DNA of 49,967 bases from Rufibacter ruber (lineage in GTDB: Bacteria; Bacteroidota; Bacteroidia; Cytophagales; Hymenobacteraceae): contig NZ_LRMM01000034.1 of assembly GCF_001647275.1 (NCBI RefSeq), positions 1 through 49,967 on the forward strand. Reading direction: 5' to 3'. This document shows positions 6,812 to 36,264 of the stretch, in pieces (position 1 is the first letter of the stretch; each line of letters starts with the position of its first letter). The notes under the pieces were generated by a model. The model worked only from the letters and a program-made list of their open reading frames with translations. It was not told the DNA's origin and did not search any database. Made by a program: the position numbers and the translations under genes.

Positions 6812-9800
6812 TTAGTTAGAGAGCGGGCTAGGCAGAACTTGCTCTGCCTTCTTCTCCCCCAACACCTGCTTAATCCCCGCCAAACCCTCAGAAATATTCT
6901 CCATCTGTGCCAGCACCTGCCCTACCTGGTTGCCGTCACCAAAACCTTTGAGCTTGTTGTTCCGCACAAAGGCAGCTTTGATGTCTTCCCAGCGCTGGTT
7001 TTCTTCTGGGGTGGCTGCGCCGATGAGCTGTTTGAACTTGAGCATGTTGGCCTCAGCCCCCGTGGTTAAGGTTTGGGACTCTGACTGGTAGTGCGAGAGA
7101 ATGAGCGTGTGCAGTTCCTGGTCGTTCATGATGGGCATCACCTTCTCGGCCAGCTTGTTCATGTTGCGGTACGAGCCCTGCAGTTTGAACGGTGGCTCGG
7201 TGCGGTACTCGTCGGCTTGGGCGGCGGAGCGGATATATTCCAGGTTCACTTTCAGAATCACGTCGCGGATGGCCAGGAGCTTTTTGAGCACGGCCACGTA
7301 CTCGCTGATCTCAGCGGCGGTGTGGTTGGCTTCCAGCTCCATGCCCTCTTTGCCGCCCGTTTCGGCCAGTTTTACCAAGGCATACACGTCTTTCTGGCTT
7401 TTGGCCGCAAGCTTGGCAAGCACCGCGTTGGAGGTGAGGGAGTTCTCCAGGTAGCTCAGTTTGAAGACGTCTTCGGTGTCACCTATGATGTCGCCCAAGT
7501 TGTAGATGTCAGCGCGGTTGGCGAGCATGTCTGGGATGCGGAATTTGTCGCCCGTTTCGGTGTAGGGGTTCCCGGCCATGACCACGCACACTTTTTTACC
7601 TCGGAAATCATAGGTGCGGCTGCGGCCTTTGTACACGCCCTCAATCTTGCGTTGGGCATCGCAAAGGGAGATAAACTTCTGCAGGAACTCAGGGTTGCAG
7701 TGTTGGATGTCGTCCAGGTAAATCATCACATTGTCGCCCATCTCGAAGGACAGGTTCAGCTTCTCCAGTTCCTCACGGGCGGCAGCGTTGGGCGCCTCGG
7801 TGGGGTCCAGCGCCGTGACCTGGTGCCCGATGGCGGGACCGTTGATTTTCATGAAGATGATGCCCAAGCGATTAGCGATGTACTCCATGAGCGTGGTCTT
7901 TCCGTAGCCCGGCGGCGACAGCAAGAGCAACATGCCCATTAAATCGGTACGTTTGGTCTCCCCTGCCGTGCCCATCTGTTTAGCCAGGTTCGCGCCGATG
8001 AGCGGCAGGTACACCTGGTCAATCAGCTTGTTCCGCACAAAAGAGGACATGACCCGCGGTTTGAATTCCTGTAGGCGCAGCTCCTCTTCAAACTCCACCG
8101 TCATTTGGTGCTTGAGTGCGTGGAAGGCTTTGTACTGGCTCACCACGTGGGTTTCATAATGACTAAGTTTCTGCTGGAACTGGTGAAAATGCAAGGGATA
8201 CTGCTGCTCCTGCAACAGCGGGTGGCTGCCCTGCATGCCTGCCAGCGTTTCGCGCAGGTTGGCGTGCACCAGGTGGGCTGGTTTCAGTTCTTTTAACAGC
8301 AACAGCACCGCGGCTTCGGGCACGTATTCTAAATCCTCCGAGCGGCTGGCCTGCGTCAGGAATGCTTTGAGCCAATGCTGCATCAACTCAAACCGCTCTA
8401 TCTGGCTTTCTTCTAACGCCTTGGCCGAAGATTCAAACAAGCTCCAGGCCTTCTTTTCGGTGAGGTACTGGTGGAAGTTCTGCACCAGTTCCGCCGCCTG
8501 CGCGCTGGAAATGAAATGGTCGCCGCGGGTCAGTTCATAGAACAGGTATTCCCCGGCGGCTTCGGCATTGGCCTCGGGTAGCAAACCAGTCTGCTGCTGG
8601 AAGGCCTGGAGCTCGCGCTGCAAGTCTGTTTTAATGGCATCAAACTGGTGCGTTTCGGGGAAGACCTGCAAGATGGCGCCCACGCCTTTGAGTTGGTGAT
8701 GGAACAGCTGTTTTTGACCTTCTTTCGCGAAAACAGCCCAAAAAAGGCGGGCCGCGGCGCGGTCCTCGGCCTTATATCTGAGTAAATCGGCAGTCTTGAA
8801 GAGGCGCACCAGGGCGCTCACAATCAGGGCCGCGTCATGGTCGTGCACACCTTTGAGGTAGCCTTCGCTGAAGCGGGTAGCCATGAACTTCTGCACGTAC
8901 GCGGTCAGTTCCTCGGTGCGGAGCTTGTGCAGTTCATCCAGGGTCAACAGGTGCAGGCTTCCTTCTGAGGCTTCGGCTGTAGAAGGCGTGGTCTTCGCCT
9001 GTTGCGCGGCTTGCAGAATCTGGAAGGCCAGGTACTCGGCGCGGTACACTTGATTATTTTCTGAGATGAGCGATTGCTCCCACACGGGGCGGTAACTCAC
9101 AAAACGCTCATCGGTGATTTTCTCGAAGAAGCTGGTGCCCGTGAGGTGGTAGTACATGGCGTCGTCACGGTGCACAATGCTGAGCTCCAGCGGCTGGGTG
9201 TTCACGGTGAAATGGTGCGTGCCGAACTTGAGCACGTTCTGCCCGTCCACGAACAGTTCGCTTTTGTCTTTAAGTTGGCGCACGGCATCTTCGCGCAGCG
9301 TTTTCAGGCGACTCTGGATGGCATCGGCTTTCACGGTGTCGCCCATGGCCAGGAGTTCGTCCACAGTGGTGCGCACTTTTTCCAGCATCAAATCTGAGGC
9401 GAAGTAGCCGTTGATTTCGGCCACGGTGTCCAGCTTGCTCAGTCGACTTTGTACGGCTTTAAGAATGCGGTCGGCGGCCTGTTGTAGGGTGGTGGCGCGT
9501 TTGTTGCGGGCTTCCTGCAGCGCGACTTTCTTGCTCTCAAAGGCAGAGTAAATCTCTTCGCGTTTATCGGCTATTATTTCTAAAAACGCGTCAAACTCTG
9601 AGAAGCGGCCTTCCAACTCCTCTAGCTGCACCATGAGCTTGGTGAGGTATTCGTCGCATTTCTGGGGCGTATCGCACACGTCCAGGAAGTTGATGACGCT
9701 CTGGCTGATGAGCTTGATTTGGGCGTTGAATTCGGCCTGACCTTCCGAGCTTAACAAGTCCTGCCGCTTGCGCTTGAGGGTAGCCTTGGTTTTGTTGAAC

Positions 9801-11797
9801 GATGCGTAAATGGTGGAAATGGCGTCTACGATGCGCGTAGTTTGGGTGGCGTCTTCAATCTTGAGGTTGCTTACAATCTCAATCAGCATCTCCAGCTCGG
9901 CGCTCACGCCCGAAATTTCCTTCTCGGTGGCATCGGCCTCCACTACTTTGGCAATCTGGTCTATGCCCGCCGTGATATGCGCCACGCGCTGTTCGTAGGG
10001 AACCAGTGCATCGGGCTTCAGCAAGAAGTCTACCGTTTGGTTCGCCAAGTCCTGGCTGAAGCTCTGCAGTTGCGTCTCGTACTGTTCAATGCGAGCCACA
10101 TCCGCATAGCGGAGTTCCTTCAACGAAATCACCTCACCCCGCACCGACCGCAAATCGGCCAGCGCTTTCACGAAGTCGTTGATGTGGCCGTTGCTCTGCA
10201 ATTTTAGGCGCGAAAGCAAGGCATCGGCGGTGCCGAGCACCTGGTCTACCTGCGCCTGCGTACTTTTCCTGATGCTGATGACCTTCTCAAATTCCTCTAC
10301 CGCCGCGGTGGCCGTCTGGCGGATGGCCGAGAGGGGCTGCGCCAGCTCAAACGTCTCCTTTTTGTCCAGCCAGTGATAGCTATCGAGCAAATCGGTGGTA
10401 AGTTTGATGAGGTCCAGGTACAGGTTGTCATAGGAATCCTCCTTGTTGACCAAGGTGAGAATCTCGGTACACTCGGCCATGGCCCGCACAATTTCCTTGT
10501 TACCTATTTTGTACAGGAAACTCTCTTTGGTGACGGGAATGGTGTAGTTGGAGCCAATGTACGGCGTCTGCCAAATCTGAAGGGCGTGGTGTTTTTTGGG
10601 TTCCTCATCGCCTCTAAAATAACAAAGCTCGCCGTTCTCATAAATGGCATAGCCGTGGCAGATGATGGGGCTCTCAATCTTCTGGGTAATCAGGTTGTAA
10701 CTGAGCAACAGATACACGCCACTCAGTTTGTTATAGAAGACGTACAGAAAATCTTCGCCGTTGGGCGAGGCAATGCGCTTCTCAAACAGCATGTCTTGCA
10801 AGCCGTTGTCAAAACTCTTGAACTCGCCGGTCTGCAGGTAGTAACCGTAGGCGTAGATGATGCCCTGGTCTTCGGGCAGGAACACGCAGCAATCCTGAAT
10901 GGCGTCTATTCGGCGCGCCTCCTTCAGTTTAGCATTATAAACAATATAGCGGTAGTTGTTCTCGCGGTACGGCCTGATTTTGAGCAAAATCAGATTGCCG
11001 ATAAAGGCGTAGTACAGCTCCGAGTCGTCCAGCGTCTGGTCTTTGTCCTCTACGGGCTCCGCGTAAATGCCCTGCCCTGTCTCGGTGTTGTCCTCTACCT
11101 TGATGGTCAAATCCCCACCAATGGTCTCCACAAACACCTTGTCCTCAATGGAGATGTGCGGGTGCTTGCCTTTGCGGTGCGCCTCGCGGGTGACGCGCTT
11201 CCAGGCGAAATCGTGCTGGTTCGGGAAGGTGTACTCGTGGTCGGAGCGGTTGTCCAGGTAGGTCAGTTTGCCTGCCTGCAGCGCCCACTTAAAGGTTTTA
11301 ATGTCATTCACACCCTTGCCAATGCGGAACACCATGAACAGGTGCACGCCCTGCACCGCGAACTTCACAAACTGCGTGTTCTTGTAGTACTTGTACAGCT
11401 TCTGAAACTCATCCTGAAAGGTGGCGTGATTGATGAGTTCCAGCGACTGGTGGTGGAACTGGTGGTTCTCATAGGTGTACACACTGAACACATCGCTCAG
11501 CTCTACCTCGGTCTTAAGCCCCAAATGCACGTTGTACCCAAACAACAGCTGCTCCCCAACAGGCACCATGTCATAGGGCACGCAGTTGTGCTCTGTGGTC
11601 ACCCGCTCCGTGGCCAGCAACTTCGTCTCAATCGCCCCAAAGACTTCTTTCCGCTCGTTATTTAGCTGGTCCAGCAAACCGCGCAGTTCTCCGCCGCTTT
11701 TGCTCAGGCGGTTGCGCAGGATTTCGTAAGTACCGCCTTCCAGTTGCACGGGGGCGGTGGTTTCTGGGGGATTGGGAGTTGGGGTGGTTGTATTCAT
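6812..11797 (-). CDS. Giant DUF3686 + AAA+ ATPase ('DNA repair ATPase' family)
   Basis: A 1661-aa cytoplasmic protein. The N-terminal ~480 residues match the DUF3686 type, followed by a long charged coiled-coil and helical middle (about 480-1230). A C-terminal AAA+ domain has Walker A GYGKTT near residue 1297, Walker B MIYLDDIQ near 1356, a sensor segment VVMAGNPYTETGD, and the arginine-finger-like PDMLANRAD near 1420. Databases often label this family 'DNA repair ATPase', without strong experimental support. Here it ends a minus-strand cluster with PspA, flotillin and YqiJ-like genes, which suggests a role in envelope stress, perhaps as the force-generating unit. Residues about 1018-1030 (WAVFAKEGQKQLF) coincide with a copy of the dispersed palindrome. 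Long antisense open frames over this gene are codon-bias shadows. Confidence 0.9.
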   Translation of the reverse strand: MNTTTPTPNPPETTAPVQLEGGTYEILRNRLSKSGGELRGLLDQLNNERKEVFGAIETKLLATERVTTEHNCVPYDMVPVGEQLLFGYNVHLGLKTEVELSDVFSVYTYENHQFHHQSLELINHATFQDEFQKLYKYYKNTQFVKFAVQGVHLFMVFRIGKGVNDIKTFKWALQAGKLTYLDNRSDHEYTFPNQHDFAWKRVTREAHRKGKHPHISIEDKVFVETIGGDLTIKVEDNTETGQGIYAEPVEDKDQTLDDSELYYAFIGNLILLKIRPYRENNYRYIVYNAKLKEARRIDAIQDCCVFLPEDQGIIYAYGYYLQTGEFKSFDNGLQDMLFEKRIASPNGEDFLYVFYNKLSGVYLLLSYNLITQKIESPIICHGYAIYENGELCYFRGDEEPKKHHALQIWQTPYIGSNYTIPVTKESFLYKIGNKEIVRAMAECTEILTLVNKEDSYDNLYLDLIKLTTDLLDSYHWLDKKETFELAQPLSAIRQTATAAVEEFEKVISIRKSTQAQVDQVLGTADALLSRLKLQSNGHINDFVKALADLRSVRGEVISLKELRYADVARIEQYETQLQSFSQDLANQTVDFLLKPDALVPYEQRVAHITAGIDQIAKVVEADATEKEISGVSAELEMLIEIVSNLKIEDATQTTRIVDAISTIYASFNKTKATLKRKRQDLLSSEGQAEFNAQIKLISQSVINFLDVCDTPQKCDEYLTKLMVQLEELEGRFSEFDAFLEIIADKREEIYSAFESKKVALQEARNKRATTLQQAADRILKAVQSRLSKLDTVAEINGYFASDLMLEKVRTTVDELLAMGDTVKADAIQSRLKTLREDAVRQLKDKSELFVDGQNVLKFGTHHFTVNTQPLELSIVHRDDAMYYHLTGTSFFEKITDERFVSYRPVWEQSLISENNQVYRAEYLAFQILQAAQQAKTTPSTAEASEGSLHLLTLDELHKLRTEELTAYVQKFMATRFSEGYLKGVHDHDAALIVSALVRLFKTADLLRYKAEDRAAARLFWAVFAKEGQKQLFHHQLKGVGAILQVFPETHQFDAIKTDLQRELQAFQQQTGLLPEANAEAAGEYLFYELTRGDHFISSAQAAELVQNFHQYLTEKKAWSLFESSAKALEESQIERFELMQHWLKAFLTQASRSEDLEYVPEAAVLLLLKELKPAHLVHANLRETLAGMQGSHPLLQEQQYPLHFHQFQQKLSHYETHVVSQYKAFHALKHQMTVEFEEELRLQEFKPRVMSSFVRNKLIDQVYLPLIGANLAKQMGTAGETKRTDLMGMLLLLSPPGYGKTTLMEYIANRLGIIFMKINGPAIGHQVTALDPTEAPNAAAREELEKLNLSFEMGDNVMIYLDDIQHCNPEFLQKFISLCDAQRKIEGVYKGRSRTYDFRGKKVCVVMAGNPYTETGDKFRIPDMLANRADIYNLGDIIGDTEDVFKLSYLENSLTSNAVLAKLAAKSQKDVYALVKLAETGGKEGMELEANHTAAEISEYVAVLKKLLAIRDVILKVNLEYIRSAAQADEYRTEPPFKLQGSYRNMNKLAEKVMPIMNDQELHTLILSHYQSESQTLTTGAEANMLKFKQLIGAATPEENQRWEDIKAAFVRNNKLKGFGDGNQVGQVLAQMENISEGLAGIKQVLGEKKAEQVLPSPLSN
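8706..8748. repeat. Family P-like palindrome inside the ATPase coding region
   Basis: CTGTTTTTGACCTTCTTTCG faces CGAAAACAGCCCAAAAAAGG; about 12 of 16 core positions pair. It closely resembles the intergenic copy at 25503-25543 but lies in frame within the DUF3686 ATPase, encoding about 13 residues. Confidence 0.55.
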
Positions 11798-11865
11798 GTT
11801 AGTACTGGTTGGGCCTAGAGGGGCTTTTGCGCTTTGGCGGGTGTAAGCGGTGATGTGGTATAGTG

Positions 11866-11908
11866 GGTGTTTTTGGCTTGTTTTTGGGAAAACAGGCTCA
11901 AAACGGGT
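11866..11908. repeat. Dispersed palindrome, family P (copy 6)
   Basis: GTGTTTTTGGCTTGTTTT faces AAAACAGGCTCAAAACG. It lies between the minus-strand genes at 12043 and 6812, about 70 bp upstream of the ATPase start. Confidence 0.8.
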
Positions 11909-12012
11909 TTGGTGGAGACGCTCGCAGGTCCTCCGGACGCTACGAGGTCAGGGACTTCTTCTGTTTATTTACCTGTAGCGATTTAAAATTCACTTTTTGC
12001 AACACTACCCGG

Positions 12013-12046
12013 TACTCCCCCTTTGAAGGGGGTAGGGGGATGTTAC
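12013..12046. repeat. ACTCCCCCTTTGAAGGGGG element (copy 1)
   Basis: TACTCCCCCTTTGAAGGGGG followed by TAGGGGGATGTTAC. An inverted copy lies at 12467-12501 on the other side of the small gene at 12043-12432, and a third copy is at 31277-31315. Confidence 0.85.
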
Positions 12047-12432
12047 ATCTGTAGGTTACGCATTGCTGCTTCTCTTTTATCCATATAAGCCGTTCCGAAG
12101 CCCCAGCTTAAAAGAGAAAATAAAATCATGGTAGATACATAACTGATATTCGCATCCCAATCAGAAATACGAAGTATACAACTTTGGCTGCCATAATACT
12201 CCCTATACCCTAATTGCACAAAAAAGAGCAAGGTGGTAAAGAGTGCAATTATGATGAAAAGCAACTTATGCCCTATGCAAGGCTGTAGTGACTGCAACTT
12301 CCTCCAGAGGAAAAAATTGAAGACAACTGGGGCAAAAAACATTGGCAAAGGAGATAAAAACAGCATCAACAGAAAGGTAATCCCGTATCCTTTTATTCCG
12401 TAATTGGCGAGTACTCTTAGCCTCTCATGCAT
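12043..12432 (-). CDS. Small multi-pass membrane protein, function unknown
   Basis: A 129-aa hydrophobic protein with three likely membrane segments (about 14-40, 55-76, 97-113) and a short charged C-terminal tail. No family recognised. It is flanked on both sides by inverted copies of the ACTCCCCCTTTGAAGGGGG element (12013-12046 and 12467-12501), and its sequence looks more AT-rich than its neighbours, so it may be an insert in the stress-related cluster rather than a core member. The left element overlaps its last codons. Confidence 0.55.
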   Translation of the reverse strand: MHERLRVLANYGIKGYGITFLLMLFLSPLPMFFAPVVFNFFLWRKLQSLQPCIGHKLLFIIIALFTTLLFFVQLGYREYYGSQSCILRISDWDANISYVSTMILFSLLSWGFGTAYMDKREAAMRNLQM

Positions 12433-12466
12433 TTCCTTCTGTTTCTAAATGCGTGGACACTCCTGT

Positions 12467-12501
12467 GTAAACATCCCCCTACCCCCTTCAAAGGGGGAGT
12501 A
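12467..12501. repeat. ACTCCCCCTTTGAAGGGGG element (inverted copy 2)
   Basis: Reverse complement of copy 1. Similarity to the third copy (31277-31315) extends outward through TGTTTACACAGGAG, so the repeat unit is longer than the hairpin itself. Confidence 0.85.
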
Positions 12502-12578
12502 TCGGGAAGGCGTACTTTTTCATCAGCTTTTAGTCGGCTTTCGATCTGGACAATTCTTCAAGTGACCACGGCTTGCCC

Positions 12579-13265
12579 CTACACCGTTATCCGCTTGCGC
12601 AGCTCTGCCAACTCCTGTTTCAGTTCCTCTACTTTGTTGGCTTCAGACTGCATTTCGCGTTTCAGTTTCACTTCGCGCTCGCGGGCAGCGGCTTTGTGGT
12701 CTTTCAGTTCCTGGTCAATCTCTTCATAAGCCCTAATCTTCTCCTGGGTCACGCTGTTGCTGTTTTTGTACATGAACGCGAACACGGCGGCCAATGCCCC
12801 CAAACCCAAGATAATGGCAATGCTTACCACCACATACAGCTGCTTGTCCATGTCCAGCCCCAGCACCGAAAGGTGGGAAATGTCATGGTCAATCTGCCGG
12901 AGCTGCTGCTCTTTGCGGGCGTTGTCCTGCTGTAGGGCCTGCGCTCGGGCTTTTTGGGCGGCCAATTCCTGCTGTGTTTTCTCCAGCTTGATGGCGGTTT
13001 CCTTGCCGGCGTTTTTAATGCTGACCTCCCGGGCCTTCAGGGTATCCTGCACGCTTTTGAGCAAAGCCTCCAGTCCGCTTTCCCGAACCACTCTATAGTC
13101 ATGCCCAAACTCTTTGTACGGCGAGGACCTGTACTTCAAGGAGTTGAACTGCTGGGCAATGGTATAGGCTGTTTTTGGTTTGGGTGCGGCGGCGGTTTGC
13201 GTTTGGGCCATGCCTGAAGACATGACAACAGCACTGAAAATCAAAGAGAGGGATAAGGCTTTCAT
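12579..13265 (-). CDS. Exported, membrane-anchored coiled-coil protein
   Basis: A 228-aa protein with a signal peptide (1-20, cut near GMAQ), a short domain QQFNSLKYRSSPYKEFGHDYRVV at about 39-61, a periplasmic coiled coil (65-130), one membrane segment (143-166) and a cytoplasmic coiled coil rich in Glu/Lys/Arg (170-228). The domain after the signal peptide resembles flavobacterial proteins commonly mislabelled 'tRNA (guanine-N1)-methyltransferase'; nothing here supports methyltransferase activity. The ATG at 13265 is preferred because the upstream extension lacks a signal-like start. Lying next to flotillin and PspA genes and spanning the membrane with two coiled coils, it could link periplasmic and cytoplasmic parts of the system; that is inference. 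Confidence 0.8.
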   Translation of the reverse strand: MKALSLSLIFSAVVMSSGMAQTQTAAAPKPKTAYTIAQQFNSLKYRSSPYKEFGHDYRVVRESGLEALLKSVQDTLKAREVSIKNAGKETAIKLEKTQQELAAQKARAQALQQDNARKEQQLRQIDHDISHLSVLGLDMDKQLYVVVSIAIILGLGALAAVFAFMYKNSNSVTQEKIRAYEEIDQELKDHKAAAREREVKLKREMQSEANKVEELKQELAELRKRITV

Positions 13266-13403
13266 TCGCGAATAAGTAAGAGTCAATAATGTTACCTGTG
13301 AAAATAAAATTACTGATTTCCGCCGAAGGGCGAAAGACAAAACCTTCTCTTTTGAGGGAATTCCCTCATTTTTCAGCGGCAGTACCATTTCAACTTGTTT
13401 CCC

Positions 13404-13443
13404 TGCTGTTTTTGCTGTTTTCCTGAAAACAGGCCAAAAACAC
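13404..13443. repeat. Dispersed palindrome, family P (copy 7)
   Basis: CTGCTGTTTTTGCTGTTTTC faces GAAAACAGGCCAAAAACA. It is upstream of the coiled-coil gene and downstream of the flotillin gene. Confidence 0.8.
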
Positions 13444-13478
13444 CAGATATCTGAAGATTATGTTCAGCTTGTAGAAAC

Positions 13479-13505
13479 CCATCCCTACCCCTCCTAGGAG
13501 GAGAC
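13479..13505. repeat. ACCCCTACCCCTCC-type GC-rich element
   Basis: CCCATCCCTACCCCTCCTAG followed by GAGGAG, containing the palindrome CTCCTAGGAG. Similar pieces are at about 3400-3420 and, in opposite sense with GGGGTTGGGGTGGG, at about 31410-31435 and 6799-6813. Confidence 0.6.
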
Positions 13506-13641
13506 TTCCTCTGCATGGCAGTTAATTTTTGTTTCGGCAAGCTTTACTACTTTCCCTACTTCCATCCGTTCTGTTCCTTCGCCTCACTGGAATTCTGCCC
13601 GTCCTCTCTGCCCCTTCGCTCTTCCCGCTCTCTTCCCGCTC

Positions 13642-13756
13642 TTCCGGAGTTCTACTCCGGAAGCAATCTGCCGGGGAGTTCTACTCCCCTTCTTTTGCCC
13701 GTGGTTCCCGGCGGAGTAGAACTCCGCAGCAGGTAGGTTCGGGAGTAGAACTCCCG
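13642..13756. repeat. REP/BIME-like array of four short hairpins
   Basis: Four hairpins share the core GGAGTTCTACTCC or its complement: 13642-13662, 13673-13689, 13711-13727 and 13740-13756. The first two and last two are in opposite orientation, as in BIME-type paired REP sequences. Tails such as GAACAGCTTGTCAG follow, and a degenerate unit continues to about 13830. Part of an 827-bp gene-free stretch (13266-14092). Confidence 0.8.
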
Positions 13757-13882
13757 AACAGCTTGTCAGATTGTTTGTGTCAGCTTGTGGAAAGCTCCCG
13801 AACAGTTTGTCAATTCGTCAGCATGTACAGCGGGTAACTTCTAAACTGCGCTTCTGCTTATTTCCTGTTATCTCATTTTATA

Positions 13883-13972
13883 TTGTCATTCTGAAAGAAC
13901 CTTGGGCGAACTGGAAAAGCGTTCTAGTAAATGCTATTACCGTTCGCCCACAAGATCCTTTCAGGATGACAA
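13883..13972. mobile_element. MITE-like element with about 30-bp inverted ends
   Basis: The left end TTGTCATTCTGAAAGAACCT and the complement of the right end TTGTCATCCTGAAAGGATCT align over about 30 bp through GGGCGAAC, enclosing about 30 bp. There is no coding capacity, so any movement would need a transposase elsewhere. Similar TGTCATCCTGAAAGG repeats are, from memory, common in Cytophagales genomes. Confidence 0.75.
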
Positions 13973-14002
13973 AGAGAGGGATGACGCGGGATTAATAGGA
14001 AC

Positions 14003-14046
14003 TCCTGTTTCTGGCCTCTTTTCCCCCAAACAGCTCCAAAACGCTT
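14003..14046. repeat. Dispersed palindrome, family P (copy 8)
   Basis: CTCCTGTTTCTGGCCTCTTTT faces AAACAGCTCCAAAACG, imperfect, about 50 bp past the flotillin stop codon on the minus strand. Confidence 0.65.
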
Positions 14047-14092
14047 TCCTGCTTCCTCTCCCCTAAACGGAAGAGAGGAAACTTTATGGAAA

Positions 14093-16264
14093 TTAATTCA
14101 GCGTATACACTGGCTTATCTCCCAGCCCCAGGGCGGTAGCCGTGGAGGTCAGTTCTTTTAAGGTGTTGGCGGTGGCGTCATCCAGGGTTTTCTGCTGCAT
14201 CATTTTCAGGAGCAGCGCTGAAACGCTCAAGTTTCGTACGTCCTCGGTGTCCATGCCGAATTGGGTGATGAAGCGCTGCAGGTTGGCTTTGAAGTCAATG
14301 TGACCGTTGCTGTCTTTCTGGAAGAAAGCCTCCTTTACGGTGCCCAGTACTTCGCTGTTAGTGACCAGACGGTCTACCTGTTTGCCTTTGGTGATGGAGC
14401 CTACAATCTGGTCAAAGAACATGGTCTCGCCGCCCACAATGTCAATCTTGGCCGCTTTCAGGGCCTCGGCAATCACGCTGGCCTGTGACGCGGCAATCTC
14501 TTTCTGGATGTCAATGTGGGCCAGTTCAATGGCTTTGTCTTTCTCCAGACGAAGCTTGAACTCTTCGTGCTCTTTGCCCACGCCGTCCAGTTTCTTCATG
14601 GCATCGGCTTTCTCTTCAATGCCTTTGGCTTCCACGGCAAACTTCTCCCCGCTCACGCGGGCTTCGGCTAAACCGCGTTTCTCTTCGGCGGCAGCCAGGT
14701 TGGCAATGATAGACGCATCTGCCAAGCCTTTCTCCTGGGTCACTTTGGCGGCGACTAAACCAATTTTCTCGTCGGCTTCGGCCTGGGCTTCTGCTTGGGC
14801 GCGGATGGCTTTGGCGGTGGCCAGGGCTTGGCGCTCGGTTACCACTGCTTCAGCTTCGCCTTCTTTCTGGCGGGCGGCGGCTTTGGCTTCCATCACCTGT
14901 GCTTCAGACAAACCGACAGCGGCAGCCTGGGTGGCTTCGGCTTCAGCCATTACTTTGATGGCTTGGGCACGGTTCGCGGCGGAGGTTTTCTCGGCCTCGG
15001 CGTCAATCAGTAACTGCTCGGCTCTGAACTCGGCGGCCTGACGGGCGGCCTCAGCGCCTTTAATTTCTTTCACCAATGCTTCCTGCGCCTCCATTTCGGC
15101 GGTGGTGATGGCCACAGATTTCAGACGCTCGGCCTCGGCGAAGGCTTTGGTGTCTTTGATTTTCTCTTCCTCTTCCACCACGGCTTTCTCCACCACCACG
15201 CGCTCTTTGATGATGGCCTGAATGTTCTTGCGCTCTTCTTCAATGGCCTTCTCTTTCTCAATCTGCGCCAATGCCACAATGCGCTCTTTCTCGTTGGCTT
15301 CCAACAGGCGGGCCTGCTCTACACGCTCGGTCTCCACGGCATCGGTGCGCTGTTTGCTGCGTTCAGCTACCAACACCTGGCGGGCCAGGTTCTGCTCGGC
15401 AATTTGTACCTCTTCATCGGTGGCCAGGCGAGCGCGTTCGGCAATCATGCGTTGCTCCTGGCGTACTTTCTCAATCTCAGCGGCTTCTCTGGACTTGATG
15501 GTGGCAATTTCGCGGCGTTGCTTTTCCTCATTCTCAGCTAATTGTTTCTCCAGCTCCAGAATAGTCTCCTGCGCCTCTACGTTCTGTTTCTTGATGGTTT
15601 TCTCACGCTCGCGCTCAATGAGGTTGGCCTGTACCTTCTGTTTGGCGGTAAGGTCTATGATTTTCTTGATACCCTCGGCGTCCAGGATGTTGTTCTCGTT
15701 CAGGCTGCTGAGTGGGGTTTGCTCCAGGTAGTCAATAGCGCAGTCGTCCAGCACGTAGCCGTTCAAATCCGTACCAATGGTCTGTAGAATCTGGCGTTTG
15801 AACTCGTCGCGGCTCTGGTAGAGCTCCACAAAGTCAAAGTGCTTGCCCACGGTTTTGAGGGCCTCAGAGAACTTGGCGTCAAAGAGGCTTTCCAGGGCCA
15901 TAGGGTCAGAGGCGCGCTTACAGCCAATGCTCTGGGCCACCTGCACCACATCTTCAGCGGTCTTGTTTACGCGCACAAAGAAGTTCACCTTGATATCGGC
16001 GCGCAGGTTGTCTTTGCAAATCAGGCCTTCGGTGCCGGTGCGGGAGATGACAATGGTTTTGAGGGTGATGTCCATCATTTCCAGCTTGTGGATAATGGGC
16101 ACCACAAAGATGCCGGAGAACGAGACTTTGGTATCGCCCATGCCGGTGCGCACCATGGCTTCGCCCTGAATGGCCTTGCGGTACATCTTGATGATGACAA
16201 TGAAGATACCGAACACCACCACCGCCAACATCACGGTTGTGGCTAGAGTAAGAGATTCAAACAT
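14093..16264 (-). CDS. Flotillin-family SPFH protein (YqiK-like)
   Basis: A 723-aa protein with one N-terminal membrane segment (about 8-26), an SPFH/band-7 domain (about 30-220, with VPIIHKLEMMDITLKT and CKDNLRADIKVNFFVRV) and a very long Ala/Glu/Arg/Lys coiled coil (about 220-600) with flotillin-type AEAE repeats. A C-terminal oligomerisation domain follows. Flotillins form large membrane cages that organise fluid domains. The size and order fit E. coli YqiK rather than the short FloA type. The gene follows the YqiJ-like gene by 12 bp, the same pair order as yqiJ-yqiK, so the two are almost certainly co-transcribed and work together at the inner membrane. Confidence 0.95.
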   Translation of the reverse strand: MFESLTLATTVMLAVVVFGIFIVIIKMYRKAIQGEAMVRTGMGDTKVSFSGIFVVPIIHKLEMMDITLKTIVISRTGTEGLICKDNLRADIKVNFFVRVNKTAEDVVQVAQSIGCKRASDPMALESLFDAKFSEALKTVGKHFDFVELYQSRDEFKRQILQTIGTDLNGYVLDDCAIDYLEQTPLSSLNENNILDAEGIKKIIDLTAKQKVQANLIEREREKTIKKQNVEAQETILELEKQLAENEEKQRREIATIKSREAAEIEKVRQEQRMIAERARLATDEEVQIAEQNLARQVLVAERSKQRTDAVETERVEQARLLEANEKERIVALAQIEKEKAIEEERKNIQAIIKERVVVEKAVVEEEEKIKDTKAFAEAERLKSVAITTAEMEAQEALVKEIKGAEAARQAAEFRAEQLLIDAEAEKTSAANRAQAIKVMAEAEATQAAAVGLSEAQVMEAKAAARQKEGEAEAVVTERQALATAKAIRAQAEAQAEADEKIGLVAAKVTQEKGLADASIIANLAAAEEKRGLAEARVSGEKFAVEAKGIEEKADAMKKLDGVGKEHEEFKLRLEKDKAIELAHIDIQKEIAASQASVIAEALKAAKIDIVGGETMFFDQIVGSITKGKQVDRLVTNSEVLGTVKEAFFQKDSNGHIDFKANLQRFITQFGMDTEDVRNLSVSALLLKMMQQKTLDDATANTLKELTSTATALGLGDKPVYTLN

Positions 16265-16276
16265 AAAACTGGAGGG

Positions 16277-16903
16277 TTAAAGAGATTCGTATGGTTCTAT
16301 TAAATACAATTGGTTTTCTGGGAGGTAATCAATCACCAGCGCGGTTTCGCCTTTTTTCACAAGGTGGCCTTGCGTGGTTTTCACGTTGAGCAAAAGCGGC
16401 GAGCCGTTGGTCTGCACGGCGGCCTGCCCAATCTGGGTGGCGTTGGCGGGCAGCATGATGGTGCACACCTGGCCAATGACGGTGGTTTTTGGCGCCTGCT
16501 CTTTTTCCATGGCGGCAAACAGTTTCACAAACGGCCAGGTGAGCAGCTTGGCTACAAAAAGGCAGACAAGGGCAATAGGCAGCAGAAACGTGTAGCCCAG
16601 CCAGCTGTCATGGGTGCCCAGCAGCTCATTCACGCCCAGACTCAGAAACCAGAACGGCAGCGCGAAGAACGACAGGAAGAACATGAGCGGGATGCGGCCC
16701 AGGTTGAAAAACGCCAGTGCCGAGTTGAGCCACGCCACTGCGCCAATGCCTTCTCCGTCAATGTCTGTTTCAACCTCCACGTCCAGGGAACTCATGTCCA
16801 GCAGCCCCACAATCACAATGACCCAGTAAAGCATCACAAAAATGAGCAAACCGGTGGCCAGCACGTTGGCGGGCGCAAAAGAGGCTTGTACAAGTTCTAC
16901 CAT
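16277..16903 (-). CDS. YqiJ-like OB-fold membrane protein, flotillin partner
   Basis: A 208-aa protein with about three or four membrane helices (about 10-35, 60-90, 105-130) and a C-terminal OB-fold-like domain (from about 140: TTVIGQVCTIML...GETALVIDYL). The segment ALAFFNLGRIPLMFFLSFF corresponds to LNIGRLP in E. coli YqiJ. NfeD/YqiJ proteins pair with flotillins, and the next gene is one. I choose the ATG at 16903; a TTG at 16978 would add 25 residues, but TAGATTTA at the expected -7 position lies inside that extension, suggesting transcription starts after it. Confidence 0.85.
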   Translation of the reverse strand: MVELVQASFAPANVLATGLLIFVMLYWVIVIVGLLDMSSLDVEVETDIDGEGIGAVAWLNSALAFFNLGRIPLMFFLSFFALPFWFLSLGVNELLGTHDSWLGYTFLLPIALVCLFVAKLLTWPFVKLFAAMEKEQAPKTTVIGQVCTIMLPANATQIGQAAVQTNGSPLLLNVKTTQGHLVKKGETALVIDYLPENQLYLIEPYESL

Positions 16904-17005
16904 ACACCGTTGTATTTCACTTTCTAAATCTACAAATTCCCAGGCACTTCCTAGGGCTTTCCTGATTTTTTTGGACAATTTCAGGCTCGGCCGGCGGTGT
17001 TCCTG

Positions 17006-17197
17006 TTATGGAAGCAGCTTGGCCGGAAGCAGCTCCAGCAGTACCGTCTGCCACACCTCTGCACTGGCGGCGGCCACCGTTGCCTTGGCTTCCGTAAAAT
17101 CTGGCCACACCGCCACCGGCTGCTGGTATCCCCCACTCCCCGCTGTCACTACCCAAATACCAACCGCCGCGAAAAACATAAATCCAATCTTTCCCAT
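17006..17197 (-). CDS. Small exported/membrane protein, unknown
   Basis: A possible 63-aa protein, MGKIGFMFFAAVGIWVV..., with a signal-peptide-like or membrane N-terminus and a short soluble tail (PDFTEAKATVAAASAEVWQT). The in-frame upstream extension is encoded by a direct-repeat element (17210-17240), so the ATG at 17197 is the natural start. It precedes the YqiJ-like gene in the same orientation. No homologue recognised; the coding call rests on the signal-like start and position. Confidence 0.45.
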   Translation of the reverse strand: MGKIGFMFFAAVGIWVVTAGSGGYQQPVAVWPDFTEAKATVAAASAEVWQTVLLELLPAKLLP

Positions 17198-17209
17198 CTT
17201 GTTAAAGGA

Positions 17210-17240
17210 GTTCTGAGTCTTGAGTCCTGAGTTCTGAGTC
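17210..17240. repeat. GACTCAGAAC-type 10-bp direct repeat (copy 1)
   Basis: TTCTGAGTCTTGAGTCCTGA and onward: about three units of a 10-bp step, (T/C)(T/C)TGAGT(T/C)(C/T)T. The same family occurs at 31236-31270, 31483-31516, 43481-43517 and 43683-43717. Confidence 0.85.
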
Positions 17241-17251
17241 AATGCAAGCGT

Positions 17252-17292
17252 GTGTTTTGGGGCTGTTTTTGAAAAAGTAGCCCTAAAACAGG
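17252..17292. repeat. Dispersed palindrome, family P (copy 9)
   Basis: GTGTTTTGGGGCTGTTTTTG faces AAAAAGTAGCCCTAAAACA, slightly mismatched, upstream of the small ORF at 17006-17197. Confidence 0.8.
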
Positions 17293-17337
17293 TGGTGGTT
17301 CTGTGGTTTGTCCGTTCGCTTTCAAGAGGAAAGTAAG

Positions 17338-17524
17338 CCCTTCCGGATTTGCAATCCGGAAGGGCAGGGGGCCATCGCTCTTCAGTCGGGGATTAGAAAT
17401 CCCGAACAGCAGTATTGAAAGTCCTCTGTCGAGGATTTATCAATCTCCAGGCCTGCGCTTTTGCTACTGGCTAGCAACGGGGATTACAACTCCCCGACAG
17501 AAGGGTTCGGGACTATAATTCCCG
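17338..17524. repeat. REP/BIME-like array of five short hairpins
   Basis: Hairpins at 17338-17364 (CCTTCCGGATTTGCAATCC core), 17386-17405 (TCGGGGATTAGAAATCCCGA), about 17430-17448 (decayed), 17478-17497 (CGGGGATTACAACTCCCCG) and 17508-17524 (CGGGACTATAATTCCCGG). Several are followed by AACAG or GACAG. They are related in design to the array at 13642-13756 and occupy the gap between the PspA gene and the YqiJ/flotillin genes. Confidence 0.8.
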
Positions 17525-17583
17525 GAGAGCAAACCGTAGAAGACAAATTCGCCTGCCCCCTCTGCTCGCCTCCGGCGGACGTT

Positions 17584-17624
17584 TCCGTTTTCGGCCTGTT
17601 TTTCAGAAAACAGCGAAAAACGCA
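17584..17624. repeat. Dispersed palindrome, family P (copy 10)
   Basis: CCGTTTTCGGCCTGTTTTTC faces GAAAACAGCGAAAAACG. It abuts the stop codon of the pspA-like gene, a terminator-like position. Confidence 0.85.
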
Positions 17625-18389
17625 TTAGCCTGCCTGCTCAGGCGAAGCGGGAGTTCCTGGAGCGGCAGCTGCGTCTGCGGCTCCCGCGTTGATGCCCAGC
17701 TTTGCCTTGAGCGCCTCTACTTCTTTGGCTGATTTTTGGGCCGTGCTGGTTTCAAGGGCCTTGTCAATCTCCTGGTCTAGGGTGCGGCTTTCGTTGGCTA
17801 TCTCGCCGTAAGATTCGGCCAGAGCTTCCTCAACGGCCACTTTTTCTTTCATGCGCTCCAGCAGGGCCACCGTGCCCGAGGAGTCAATCTGCGCCAGCTG
17901 CTTGTTGATGGTTTTGGTGGCGTTGCTCACCGTGACCCGTGATTTGAGCACCCGCAGCTCGTTCTCCCATTTGCTGATGGTGGACTTGAGCGTCTTGATG
18001 TTGCCTTCCATCTGCGCCACAGATTTCTCAAACTTGAGCTGGTCTTCCTGCGCACTGGCAGAAAGGGCCATGTTCTCCTCTTTCTTCACCAGCGCCTCGC
18101 CGGCCAGTCTATCGGCCTCCGTTGAAGCCAGTTCACCGCGGTGGGCGCGCTGCAGGAGCTGCACCGCCTTGTTCTCATAGTCCTGCGACTTGGCTTTGTA
18201 GTTCTCCACATCGTTGCGGGACCTGATGGCCATGGCTTTAACCTCGGCCAGCGCGCGCAGGCTCTTGTCCAGGTCTTCTTTCATGTCCCTGATGCCCTGC
18301 TCGGTCATCTTGATGGGGCTCTCCAGCTGGTCTACCGCCGAGTGGGCTTCGGCCTGGCCGATTTTAAAAATGCGTTTTAAGATATTCAT
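17625..18389 (-). CDS. pspA: PspA/IM30-family protein
   Basis: A 254-aa almost entirely helical protein. It starts MNILKRIFKIGQAEAHSAVDQLESP, the amphipathic N-terminal helix and conserved start of PspA/IM30 proteins, followed by coiled-coil hairpin regions to about residue 220 and a disordered Ala/Pro-rich tail. PspA assembles ESCRT-III-like membrane-bound polymers that stabilise or remodel stressed inner membrane. It follows the YjfI-like gene by 11 bp, the order also seen in the E. coli yjfI-yjfJ pair. No pspF, pspB or pspC gene is present here, so control must differ from the classical system; the divergent XRE gene is the nearest candidate. Confidence 0.92.
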   Translation of the reverse strand: MNILKRIFKIGQAEAHSAVDQLESPIKMTEQGIRDMKEDLDKSLRALAEVKAMAIRSRNDVENYKAKSQDYENKAVQLLQRAHRGELASTEADRLAGEALVKKEENMALSASAQEDQLKFEKSVAQMEGNIKTLKSTISKWENELRVLKSRVTVSNATKTINKQLAQIDSSGTVALLERMKEKVAVEEALAESYGEIANESRTLDQEIDKALETSTAQKSAKEVEALKAKLGINAGAADAAAAPGTPASPEQAG

Positions 18390-18401
18390 AGTTCTGAAGC
18401 T

Positions 18402-18800
18402 TTAGTTTTTTGAGAAGGTGATGAGTTGGTCTGAGTATTCGCTCAGCAAAAGCGCGAGGGAGTTGAGGCTCGCCTCAAGCTCATGGAGGTCCAGTTTGGC
18501 CATCTGCAGCGTATCTCTAAAGATGAGCCGGCGGCCAGATTCATCCAGCACAAAGGCGCCGTGAATGATATCGCGGTTTTTCTGGAGCAGGCTCTGGCAG
18601 ATCTCCACCGTGACCTTGGGCAGTTCCAGCAGGTACTGCTCCATGATCAGGAGCGGGTCTGTGCAGCCAATCACCAGATTCTTAATGCCCAGGCTTTCCT
18701 TCTCCACCACCAACACGCGGTCGCGCGGGTCTTCTAAGGTGATGGTGAAATCCAGTTCCAGCAAAAACTCTTTCACTTTGTGGAAGTAGTGGTTTCCCAT
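18402..18800 (-). CDS. Small YjfI/CesT-chaperone-like protein
   Basis: A 132-aa protein directly upstream of pspA (11-bp gap). It has beta strands around ITLEDPRDRVLVVEK and KNLVIGCTDPLLIMEQ, then LLQKNRDIIHGAFVLDESGRRLIFRD, and a C-terminal helix with LHELEASLNSLALLLSEY. The length, layout and place beside pspA fit E. coli YjfI (DUF2170) or a YbjN/type III secretion chaperone-like fold. The homology call is by pattern only. A likely role is binding or holding PspA. Confidence 0.65.
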   Translation of the reverse strand: MGNHYFHKVKEFLLELDFTITLEDPRDRVLVVEKESLGIKNLVIGCTDPLLIMEQYLLELPKVTVEICQSLLQKNRDIIHGAFVLDESGRRLIFRDTLQMAKLDLHELEASLNSLALLLSEYSDQLITFSKN

Positions 18801-18834
18801 AGTTTATTGAATAAGCAGCTACAAGCTATGAATT

Positions 18835-19065
18835 TCAGATCTCTGTTTTATGGGCGGCCTCTTTCTTTTGGGCATAGATTTTTTTCAACAGCGAATACAC
18901 CAGCACATACACCAGGGCCCATGCCCCCACATCTGCCAGAAATTTGTACGTGAACACACCTTCTTCAAAAGGGCTGTACTCAAACCCGGCCAGGTATTGG
19001 AGCAGCTTCACCACCACATAGGTGACAGCGAGTGCTATAAAACGGTGTGCGGTGTTACTTTTCAT
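18835..19065 (-). CDS. Two-helix membrane protein of the PspA operon, unknown
   Basis: A 76-aa protein starting MKSNTAHRFIALAVTYVVV, with two membrane helices (about 9-27 and 42-62) joined by an acidic/aromatic loop (YSPFEEGVFTYK), and a basic then acidic C-terminus. The ATG at 19065 fits better than a longer frame from 19092. It lies 34 bp upstream of the YjfI-like gene and is probably in the same transcript. It could serve as a membrane anchor or sensor, a role played by other small proteins (PspB/PspC) in classical systems; that is inference. Confidence 0.65.
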   Translation of the reverse strand: MKSNTAHRFIALAVTYVVVKLLQYLAGFEYSPFEEGVFTYKFLADVGAWALVYVLVYSLLKKIYAQKKEAAHKTEI

Positions 19066-19128
19066 GTTTTTTTTATATAAGCGGCCTGGCAAGCCAAGTG
19101 TGTCTTGTTGTTTCTGAACAGCGTGTAC

Positions 19129-19494
19129 TTAATGTGTGTCTTCTAAAGGTTGCTGCTGCTCCAGCTTCTTAAGATAACGGCTTTGCGCCCAAAGATCAAA
19201 CCCTAAGGCGATCAACAGCAGATGGTTCGCAAATGGCCAATGCATTAAATGCAGCACGGCTACACCCAGTATTAAAAGGGCGGCCATACGCTGAACCCCC
19301 ATTTTGTTGCTCGCCACTACCGTCTGCGGCAGCTGCTTTTCCAGTTGTCTGGCGTGCCACAGCATCAGCAGCCTGCCTGTTACATAAGCTCCTCCCAGCA
19401 GAACAGATGAAGAGGCCACATGCAAAAGGTTCAACACAACGGCCACTATCAGGGCAAAGGCTGCCAAAGCGTAGTAAAGGTTCTTATTTTTCAT
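19129..19494 (-). CDS. Multi-pass membrane protein heading the PspA operon, unknown
   Basis: A 121-aa protein with three to four hydrophobic segments (about 6-24, 27-44, 68-84, 87-103) and a charged C-terminal tail (RYLKKLEQQQPLED). No family recognised. It is the first minus-strand gene after the divergent promoter region shared with the XRE regulator, 63 bp from the next gene, and so probably opens the operon leading to pspA. A TTG-N20-TATACTTG promoter candidate lies about 220 bp upstream. Confidence 0.65.
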   Translation of the reverse strand: MKNKNLYYALAAFALIVAVVLNLLHVASSSVLLGGAYVTGRLLMLWHARQLEKQLPQTVVASNKMGVQRMAALLILGVAVLHLMHWPFANHLLLIALGFDLWAQSRYLKKLEQQQPLEDTH

Positions 19495-19720
19495 GGTGCT
19501 ATGGAGTTGTTTCTAAAACTTTTCCTGTCCGTCCCTTCGGCCGGGGCAAGGGTATTCTTTTTAAAAGCATTTACAAATAACCGCTGCTCATAATCCTGAC
19601 CACTGCTCCTGCTTCTTTTATTTCTGTCAAGTGCGCCGAGATAAGAAGAATTTGGCTCCTGCTGCTCATGCTTGTAGCACAACTTTAAGAATCTCTCCTT
19701 ATCTTGCCCTGAATTCGTCA

Positions 19721-19751
19721 CAAGTATACTACAAAAAATAGATACGCTCAA
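19721..19751 (-). promoter_or_regulatory. Candidate promoter of the PspA operon
   Basis: On the minus strand TTG (19749-19751), 20 bp, then TATACTTG (19721-19728), one base from the Bacteroidota consensus TAnnTTTG. Transcription would start near 19714, giving a leader of about 220 nt. The region is shared with the divergent XRE gene, so a regulator bound here could control both. Confidence 0.5.
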
Positions 19752-19786
19752 AATTGTAGCAGGTTTATTTTTAAAAATATTTTTAC

Positions 19787-20563
19787 ATGTCGTGCATCGG
19801 GAAAAACATCAAGAAGATCAGGACGGTTAAGAATTTGAGCCAAGCCGCCTTTGCGCAACTCTTTGATCTGGCGCGTCCTAGCGTGGGGGCGTATGAAGAA
19901 GGAAGGTCTGAACCTAAGATTGATACCTTGATTCAGATTGCCAGGCATTTTGGGGTAAGCCTTGACCTGCTTATCACCAAAGAACTCACCGTCAATGACT
20001 TGTATGGGTTCGACATCTTCAAGCGGGACCTTCACCAGAACCAGCTGCTCATAAAAGTAGCAGACGCAGAAGAAGCCCCCGTTCTGCGGGCGGCGCTGGT
20101 GATGGCCAGTGAGCAGGACAATTACTTTGTACGGCGGCAGGAACGGGAGTTTTTAGACAATCTGCCCACTTTGCTGCTACCAGGGCAGCAGCAGGTGCTG
20201 CACCGCGCGTTTGAGCACACCGGCTCTGAGATGCAGTACCAGCAGCACGGCCTCAGGCACGGGGATCTCCTGTATTGCACCGCCCTGCCCGTTGACGCCC
20301 TTCAGCTCAAACCCAATGAGGTGTACGTGGTGGTAACCGCCAACAAACTCATCACCCGCCGCTTTCAGGGCCTCACTGATGAAGGCGCCCTCCTGCTCAA
20401 GGCCGACAACCCCGACTATGACCACCTCCTTCAGCCGCTGGAGGAAGTGACGGAATTCTGGCACGTAGACGGGTTCTACAGCACGTATCTCAAATCACCC
20501 TCTTCCCTGGAGGAGCGGCTTACCAAGTTAGAGAGCCTGGTGAAAAAACTGATGGGGGAGTAA
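19787..20563 (+). CDS. XRE-family regulator with degenerate S24-like C-terminal domain
   Basis: A 258-aa protein. Residues 5-65 form a Cro/CI-type helix-turn-helix (IGKNIKKIRTVKNLSQAAFA...YEEGRSEPKIDTLIQIARHF). Residues about 120-235 resemble the LexA/CI S24 domain (GLRHGDLLYCTALPV, EVYVVVTANKLITRRF, LKADNPDYD, FWHVDGFYS). The usual GDSM serine is replaced (GSEMQY) and the lysine region reads TRRF, so self-cleavage is unlikely and the fold may instead sense or dimerise. It is divergent from the PspA operon with under 300 bp between, the usual position for a local regulator. A near-consensus -7 (TATTTTTA, 19778) right before the ATG suggests a leaderless or very short-leader mRNA. Confidence 0.85.
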   Translation: MSCIGKNIKKIRTVKNLSQAAFAQLFDLARPSVGAYEEGRSEPKIDTLIQIARHFGVSLDLLITKELTVNDLYGFDIFKRDLHQNQLLIKVADAEEAPVLRAALVMASEQDNYFVRRQEREFLDNLPTLLLPGQQQVLHRAFEHTGSEMQYQQHGLRHGDLLYCTALPVDALQLKPNEVYVVVTANKLITRRFQGLTDEGALLLKADNPDYDHLLQPLEEVTEFWHVDGFYSTYLKSPSSLEERLTKLESLVKKLMGE

Positions 20564-20892
20564 GAAATCAGAAAGCAATTGACCACCCCCTTTGAACTCT
20601 GCCCTTCCCCAACAGGGAAGTACCTGCGAAGGTGGCAGGCGAAGGTTCCGTCTTAGGAAGGTGGGGCCTTCAGGAATACAGATGCACCAACTTCTACAGG
20701 GTAGCTTAGGGTAAGAAGTTTTCTGTTTTCGGCCTGTTTTCTGGAAAACAGGCGAAAAACAGAAAAAGCACCCCTTTATAGGAGTAGAGCATGCTTCTGA
20801 GCCCATGAATAAATGAAGAAGGTGCGCCCTGGTACTTCGGCGCAGTTTCTGCGCTTATAGAAAAACGTAAACAACCATTTCCTCTGCCCAAT
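20564..20892. other. Intergenic region with one palindrome, no gene seen
   Basis: Between the XRE gene and the PLD-like gene. It holds family P copy 11 (20718-20766). Nothing else is convincing; no clean TAnnTTTG upstream of 20893. Confidence 0.5.
20718..20766. repeat. Dispersed palindrome, family P (copy 11)
   Basis: TTTTCTGTTTTCGGCCTGTT faces AACAGGCGAAAAACAGAAAA. One of the best-conserved copies, with the inner and outer CTGTTTT modules both intact. Confidence 0.9.
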
Positions 20893-26938: not shown

Positions 26939-26977
26939 CGTTTTTGGCCTGTTTTCGTGAAAACAGGCCAAAACGCC
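26939..26977. repeat. Dispersed palindrome, family P (copy 17)
   Basis: GCGTTTTTGGCCTGTTTTCG faces GAAAACAGGCCAAAACGC, near perfect, between two minus-strand genes. A smaller stem GCACCAG/CTGGTGC precedes it (26923-26939). Confidence 0.9.
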
Positions 26978-36220: not shown

Positions 36221-36264
36221 GTTGCTGTTTTTGGCCTGTTTTCATGAAAACAGCAAAAACAGCA
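36221..36264. repeat. Dispersed palindrome, family P (copy 20)
   Basis: GTTGCTGTTTTTGGCCTGTT faces AACAGCAAAAACAGCAAG; begins one base after the response regulator stop. Confidence 0.85.

Follow-up and report, generated by a model that had tools for sequence, protein, structure and literature searches.

A conserved YqiJ-flotillin-DUF3686 ATPase locus of Rufibacter ruber with a separable XRE-CesT-PspA module and a probable operator

The contig NZ_LRMM01000034.1 of Rufibacter ruber (assembly GCF_001647275.1), part of a draft assembly of 5.50 Mb, was analyzed over its full length of 49,967 nucleotides, referred to here as the window. It carries a cluster of ten open reading frames (ORFs) on the minus strand, located opposite one plus-strand gene for an XRE regulator. 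The minus-strand genes include those for a giant DUF3686 ATPase of 1661 amino acids (aa; 6812..11797), a flotillin-like SPFH protein of 723 aa (14093..16264), its small YqiJ-like membrane partner of 208 aa (16277..16903), a full-length PspA of 254 aa (17625..18389) and, adjoining PspA, a YjfI-like CesT_Tir_1 protein of 132 aa (18402..18800). The divergent XRE regulator of 258 aa is encoded at 19787..20563 on the plus strand. All genes named in an initial annotation, made from the sequence alone, proved to be intact ORFs in the minus-strand places it had assigned to them.

The cluster proteins were scanned with Pfam and NCBIfam. The ATPase matched DUF3686 (E 7e-194), DUF7902 (E 8e-28) and AAA (E 3e-7), and the CesT/Tir-PspA pair was confirmed on adjacent genes (PF22550, E 6e-53 and PF04012, E 1.7e-36). 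The XRE protein matched HTH_3 (E 2e-12) and, below the threshold, Peptidase_S24 (E 1e-4). For the full-length flotillin no Pfam match was obtained, residues 1-200 alone matched Band_7/SPFH (E 2e-11), and no flotillin domain was matched by the 222 C-terminal residues, so that the flotillin part of the assignment rests on the layout only, which is a transmembrane helix followed by Band_7 and a long coiled coil. A sequence search of the solved flotillin structures gave no match to this protein. The YqiJ-like protein reached 17.2 bits against PF21001, under the cut-off of 23 bits, and was assigned by this weak match together with its conserved position beside the flotillin.

For the comparison of gene neighborhoods, 59 genomes of relatives including that of the window were used, of which 20 contain DUF3686. 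Two loci, L038 and L040, are cut by contig ends and were set aside, leaving 18 complete neighborhoods with that of the window (G and L numbers denote the genomes and loci compared). In a phylum sample of 296 genomes, DUF3686 was found in eight and PspA above the cut-off in 117. Furthermore, at least 569 relatives were confirmed in a scan of named genomes; the best 80 of these were used, and those that extend 6.5 kb or more beyond the upstream end of the ATPase gene are the 60 informative loci referred to below. None of 14 control genomes, E. coli among them, was matched by DUF3686.

The YqiJ and flotillin genes are present in all 18 complete neighborhoods, and XRE, CesT and PspA follow in the same order in 15 of them. 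In the six further class-level loci all six genes were found, and YqiJ adjoins the flotillin in 24/24 complete loci. This arrangement is far beyond chance and the neighborhood is strongly conserved, which bears out the initial annotation in joining the giant ATPase at one locus with the YqiJ-flotillin and YjfI/CesT-PspA pairs. In one metagenome-assembled genome of the Bacteroidetes (L136), YqiJ-flotillin and the ATPase lie head to head in opposite orientation, and the linkage thus survives inversion.

The two groups of genes do not always occur together. YqiJ and the flotillin occur in the ATPase locus in 57 of the 60 informative loci, distributed over six named phyla. XRE, CesT and PspA occur together in 23 of them, all from Bacteroidota. 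The XRE gene was detected in 23/23 loci with CesT and PspA and not in any of the remaining 37, one of which, L065, has PspA but neither CesT nor XRE. Within the genus, ATPase and flotillin were both found in the same nine of 16 genomes and neither was found in the same seven; CesT is also present in nine, but not in exactly these nine. G012 has YqiJ-flotillin-ATPase only, with no XRE-CesT-PspA at the locus. G011 (L058) has kept XRE-CesT-PspA and a resident coiled-coil gene described below; YqiJ-flotillin and the ATPase, which flank this gene in relatives, were not found there. PspA, full-length or shortened, was not found in G012 or G023, both of which carry the ATPase, and a third ATPase locus without a local PspA is that of G040, where PspA is encoded elsewhere in the genome. 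G047 and G052 gave no PspA match either, their DUF3686 loci being cut by contig ends and G047 being only 88% complete. The PspA of the window was the sole one found in a search of its own genome.

Each module is therefore found without the other, and the flotillin, not PspA, is the constant companion of the ATPase. The locus consists of two separable modules, a core of YqiJ, flotillin and DUF3686 ATPase and an add-on of XRE, CesT and PspA that was seen only in Bacteroidota. The initial annotation had proposed one system in which the ATPase drives PspA; the complete add-on in only 23/60 loci and the split modules of G012, G023 and G011 do not sustain it.

The gene for a protein of 228 aa with a signal peptide, a coiled coil, a transmembrane segment and a second coiled coil (12579..13265, minus strand) separates flotillin from ATPase in each of the nine genus clusters having both; in G016 and G023 this gene is located far from the cluster. 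The protein had been counted as a new part of the system. It is present in 16/16 genus genomes, including six in which no cluster part was found, and in 75/150 genomes of the family. In five of the six cluster-free genus genomes the gene is located near the POT transporter gene that follows the ATPase in the window; three of these five also have the asparaginase gene of the window on the other side of the coiled-coil gene. In the sixth, G006, the POT gene is absent from the stretch examined around the coiled-coil gene. As a part of the system the coiled-coil protein was therefore rejected; it is a resident chromosomal gene with the cluster around it. The cluster genes flank this resident gene, yet flotillin and ATPase come and go together, which is good evidence that they act together.

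The small membrane proteins, likewise proposed as new parts, fared unequally. The ORF of 121 aa (19129-19494) was found only in the window, and that of 76 aa (18835..19065), whose role is uncertain, is present in six of the nine genus clusters having CesT-PspA. The exported ORF of 63 aa (17006..17197) accompanies CesT-PspA in 9/9 genus loci, was not found in the only genus cluster that lacks this pair, and may be a genuine accessory of the pair at the level of the genus. A further membrane ORF of 129 aa (12043-12432), absent from the initial annotation, was seen only in the window, L033 and L058, the last of which has no flotillin or ATPase. It was set aside as a part and treated as accessory or resident. 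All four are encoded on the minus strand. The ORF of 129 aa is bracketed by an inverted repeat of 40 nt with 95% complementarity (12005-12044 and 12470-12509), possibly forming a small repeat-flanked unit.

In the AlphaFold models of the ATPase, an N-terminal beta-propeller (about 58-411) is followed by a long helical and coiled-coil middle part and an AAA+ module (about 1236-1594). Among the entries listed in the structure comparison, the predicted AAA+ fold looks nearest to MoxR-type ATPases. No Vps4 entry is among the 50 structure matches listed for this part, a list that excludes nothing. The length of the ATPase varies: the DUF3686 frames of the Planctomycetota loci L072, L077, L081, L092, L113 and L125 are about 90-225 aa longer than that of the window, and the open frame of L082 comprises 3320 aa.

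The PspA of the window has the full alpha0-alpha5 layout, with a match to positions 1-216 of the 220 of PF04012; its residues 2-201 align with residues 2-192 of Vipp1. In five of the nine genus genomes with CesT-PspA (G003, G008, G009, G014 and G015) the called ORF is shortened to 186-210 aa; these ORFs are located at 12929-13486 in L028, 8059-8637 in L029, 8475-9065 in L030, 12705-13277 in L033 and 11941-12519 in L034. In these genomes PspA is 30-36% identical to that of the window, compared with 79-90% for the adjoining CesT and 89-93% for the ATPase. Residues 59-97 of the window PspA are gapped in all five shortened proteins and residues 48-97 in four. For residues 181-195, the mean identity to the window PspA falls from 0.93 among nine full-length relatives to 0.23 among the five shortened proteins. 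According to the text of Liu et al. (2021; PMC8281802), alpha5 of one Vipp1 subunit binds the hairpin tip of another (Interface 1), the exchanges L86C and L193C cross-link hairpin and alpha5, and deletion of alpha5 together with alpha6 abolishes the polymers. In an alignment read by eye, L86 of Vipp1 corresponds to L95 of the window PspA, within the lost stretch. Judged from these alignments, the five shortened PspAs have lost the hairpin tip and a recognizable alpha5, which are both partners of the ESCRT-III polymer contact.

For the shortened PspA, the ratio of nonsynonymous to synonymous substitution rates (dN/dS, NG86 method) was computable in nine of ten pairs, most of them near saturation; it ranged from 0.10 to 0.45 and was below 1 in all nine. 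The pairs with the lowest dN (G003/G014, G003/G015 and G014/G015; dS 0.82-1.13) gave 0.22-0.25 for the shortened PspA and 0.07-0.09 for CesT, and G003/G009 and G014/G009 gave 0.42 and 0.45 for the shortened PspA, respectively. In all ten pairs the ratio for CesT was 0.07-0.10, and for the full-length PspA of the window and G013 it was 0.06. Together with the intact ORFs, these values suggest that the shortened PspA is under relaxed but persisting purifying selection. A pseudogene is disfavored by the five intact ORFs and by ratios below 1 in the nine computable pairs, and an unrelated replacement protein was rejected because PF04012 still matches in two stretches. No second PspA was found in the five genomes, and the PspA of G009 was detected only by a model built for the shortened form.

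In a FastTree phylogeny of XRE, CesT, YqiJ, flotillin and ATPase, the five genomes and G012 were separated from the window, G007, G013 and the outgroups with a support of 0.996. Within this group, G009 was placed with G003, G014 and G015 (0.967) and G012 with G008 (0.225). A single shortening of PspA followed by its outright loss is the simplest history, not a proved one. Retained in the shortened protein are its amphipathic alpha0 end, the stretch from alpha3 to alpha4 and a C-terminal motif, with a well-conserved CesT alongside. Tentatively, the shortened PspA and CesT might serve the flotillin-ATPase machine in signaling or membrane docking without polymers, as a step towards the loss of PspA seen in G012.

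Upstream of the divergent XRE gene, a 15-bp dyad of the pattern GCY-N9-DGC was found 3-27 bp from the start codon in 43 of 45 XRE loci, with L027 and L068 lacking it; mononucleotide shuffling of the 45-bp stretches searched gave an expectation of 0.16. A stricter palindrome pattern that was tried first occurred in 17 of the 45 (0.08 expected). In the window, the dyad O1, GCTACAATTTTGAGC, is located at 19746..19760 (minus strand), 26 bp from the XRE start codon, and is identical in 9/9 genus loci. The letters vary by lineage (GCTCAAAGTTTGAGC, GCTAATTTTATTTGC and GCTACAATTTTGAGC), as expected for an operator co-evolving with its protein. Across the whole window the loose pattern has 257 matches (305 expected) and is not rare, so that the signal lies in the fixed place and the A+T-rich core and not in the letters alone. 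A second operator-like copy, O2 (GCTACAAGCATGAGC, 19664..19678, minus strand), is partly conserved in the genus alignment and differs from O1 by three mismatches; such matches number three in the window, with 1.9 expected.

The C-terminal, S24-like domain of the XRE protein scored 22.5 bits against Peptidase_S24 (cut-off 23.3). In 15 of the 45 alignment rows, inspected by eye at what we take to be the positions of the Ser/Lys dyad, there is no conserved Ser and mostly Arg in place of the expected Lys, so that classical autocleavage seems unlikely. The XRE protein and the 15-bp dyad are probably a regulator-operator pair that goes with CesT-PspA.

Further repeats and a neighboring gene were recorded in the window. 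A dispersed palindrome, CTGTTTTCNNGAAAACAG, is present in 23 copies with up to three mismatches (0.27 expected), for example at 13415-13432, 17596-17613, 20734-20751, 26949-26966 and 36236-36253; the copies near 11.9, 13.4, 17.3 and 17.6 kb are members of a longer, 26-nt repeat family. Five copies of a 22-nt palindromic repeat resembling GGGAGTAGAACTCCCGAACAGC are located in two intergenic gaps of the cluster (13712-13762 and 17389-17530). Just downstream of the ATPase, a PD-(D/E)XK nuclease-like protein is encoded at 5737-6663 (PF14281, E 5e-6).

In its core the locus is an ordinary member of a known operon class. In the text of Ravi et al. (2024; PMC11237479), CesT/Tir-PspA is grouped with a band-7/flotillin protein, a YqiJ-like protein and a beta-propeller AAA+ ATPase, abbreviated YqiJ-flotillin(-ATPase) operons are described as more widely distributed, and an ESCRT-like role in assembling sub-membrane complexes is proposed for the group. 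The window has the same four core parts together with the CesT-PspA pair, the match to the YqiJ/YuaF-like protein with three transmembrane segments being a weak one, and its ATPase shows the combination of an AAA+ module with an N-terminal beta-propeller and a coiled coil. That text, figures and supplements aside, names for this group no XRE regulator or operator, no shortened PspA, no reciprocal loss of modules and no MoxR-like fold. Popp et al. (2022; PMC9239133) describe in their text that band-7 genes adjoin pspA in several phyla, Bacteroidota included, and that pspA tends generally to lie near genes for HTH proteins. A literature search by the name DUF3686 and one for MoxR with flotillin found nothing, and one on PspA/flotillin operons in Bacteroidetes found Ravi et al. 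alone. The grouping of the core is thus already published; what is new is that the modules can be separated, that one supposed part falls away, that a regulator and its operator are probably recognized, and that one lineage appears to keep PspA without its polymer interface.

The YjfI-YjfJ pair of E. coli corresponds to CesT-PspA and YqiJ-YqiK to YqiJ-flotillin; in E. coli, yjfIJ and yqiJK are separate pairs. As the initial annotation had noted, the cluster differs from the canonical PspFABC system, since none of the scanned cluster proteins, to which this search was confined, matched a PspF, PspB or PspC family.

We read the locus as a flotillin-scaffold remodeling machine with an optional, regulated PspA module, to which a rough probability of 0.66 is assigned. 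The flotillin and its YqiJ partner would form an SPFH assembly at the inner membrane. The giant ATPase may bind it through the beta-propeller and the coiled coil, and its MoxR-like AAA+ ring could remodel the flotillin assembly or clients inside it, the core module thereby acting as a membrane-scaffold machine. The XRE-CesT-PspA module would be a Bacteroidota add-on, in which PspA provides an ESCRT-III-type membrane scaffold and CesT presumably chaperones PspA. Repression or activation by the divergent XRE protein, through the 15-bp dyad in the shared promoter region, would control its expression. PspA would be an optional companion of the ATPase and not its required substrate, and a role of the whole in envelope stress is plausible.

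Several observations weigh against this interpretation. In L084, L090 and L134 the ATPase is present but YqiJ and flotillin were not both detected. The AAA+ model behind the MoxR match has a mean predicted local distance difference test score (pLDDT) of 77 and a predicted template modeling score (pTM) of 0.55. The MoxR-type proteins NorQ and CbbQ differ in being small and having VWA partners (NorD VWA appears in titles of the structure matches), whereas in the window the AAA+ module shares one chain with a propeller and a coiled coil, and the Pfam scans of cluster proteins and of six proteins from the flanks gave no VWA family. The dyad patterns were picked after inspecting the sequences, and two locus pairs among the 45 are probably from the same contigs. 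Finally, the two modules are neighbors in 21 of the 24 complete loci around the relatives of the window, and CesT and PspA lie close by in all eight DUF3686 genomes of the phylum sample, so that some functional link between them is likely. This adjacency also favors a single integrated ESCRT-like system, in which the ATPase would disassemble PspA polymers as Vps4 does ESCRT-III and the flotillin would be the membrane anchor; in addition, B. subtilis PspA requires an SPFH protein to reach the membrane, as described in the text of PMC10936438. Such a system is nevertheless unlikely, given that 37 of the 60 informative loci lack the full add-on module, that G012 and G023 gave no PspA, that five relatives hold a closely similar ATPase while their PspA appears to lose its polymer surfaces, and that, of the entries listed, those of MoxR type come closest to the predicted AAA+ fold.

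A patchily distributed cassette of a defense-like or mobile kind, occupying a constant place in the chromosome and favored by selection when phages or toxins attack, would fit the presence of DUF3686 in nine of 16 genus genomes around one resident gene and its absence in close relatives. PspA responds to envelope attack, which agrees with it. We hold this explanation to be distinctly improbable: PADLOC, applied to nine cluster proteins, matched only XRE, mostly with generic HTH models, and weakly the coiled-coil protein, no integrase was found by Pfam among the cluster and flank proteins scanned, and repeated loss explains the patchy absence equally well. That the ATPase is a DNA-repair enzyme with incidental neighbors is implied by the Pfam description of PF12458 and agrees with a weak resemblance to several AAA+ proteins, RuvB included, at the sequence level and in the ranking by Foldseek, which on its own put MCM and RuvB chains first for the AAA+ part, a further point against the MoxR assignment. 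The initial annotation had questioned the DNA-repair label, and we share this doubt. The YqiJ-flotillin partnership across the six phyla and the joint presence and absence within the genus argue against it, and except for a sub-threshold RuvB_N match on the AAA+ part no nuclease or DNA-binding Pfam domain was found in the ATPase, which leaves this reading with very little credence.

With the flotillin-scaffold machine as the preferred interpretation, the published neighborhood list is turned into testable parts, in which flotillin, YqiJ and the DUF3686 ATPase are a unit, PspA is an optional module that probably has a regulator and an operator to itself, and the coiled-coil gene can be dropped. 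No generally accepted motor of bacterial flotillins is known to us, and an AAA+ protein that is dedicated to the flotillin and occurs along with it would be a concrete candidate. The window PspA aligns with Vipp1 and resembles the Vipp1/ESCRT-III proteins, a likeness from which the PspAs of the five relatives depart by the apparent loss of the Interface 1 pair. These shortened proteins may serve as a natural test of whether the usefulness of PspA needs polymerization.

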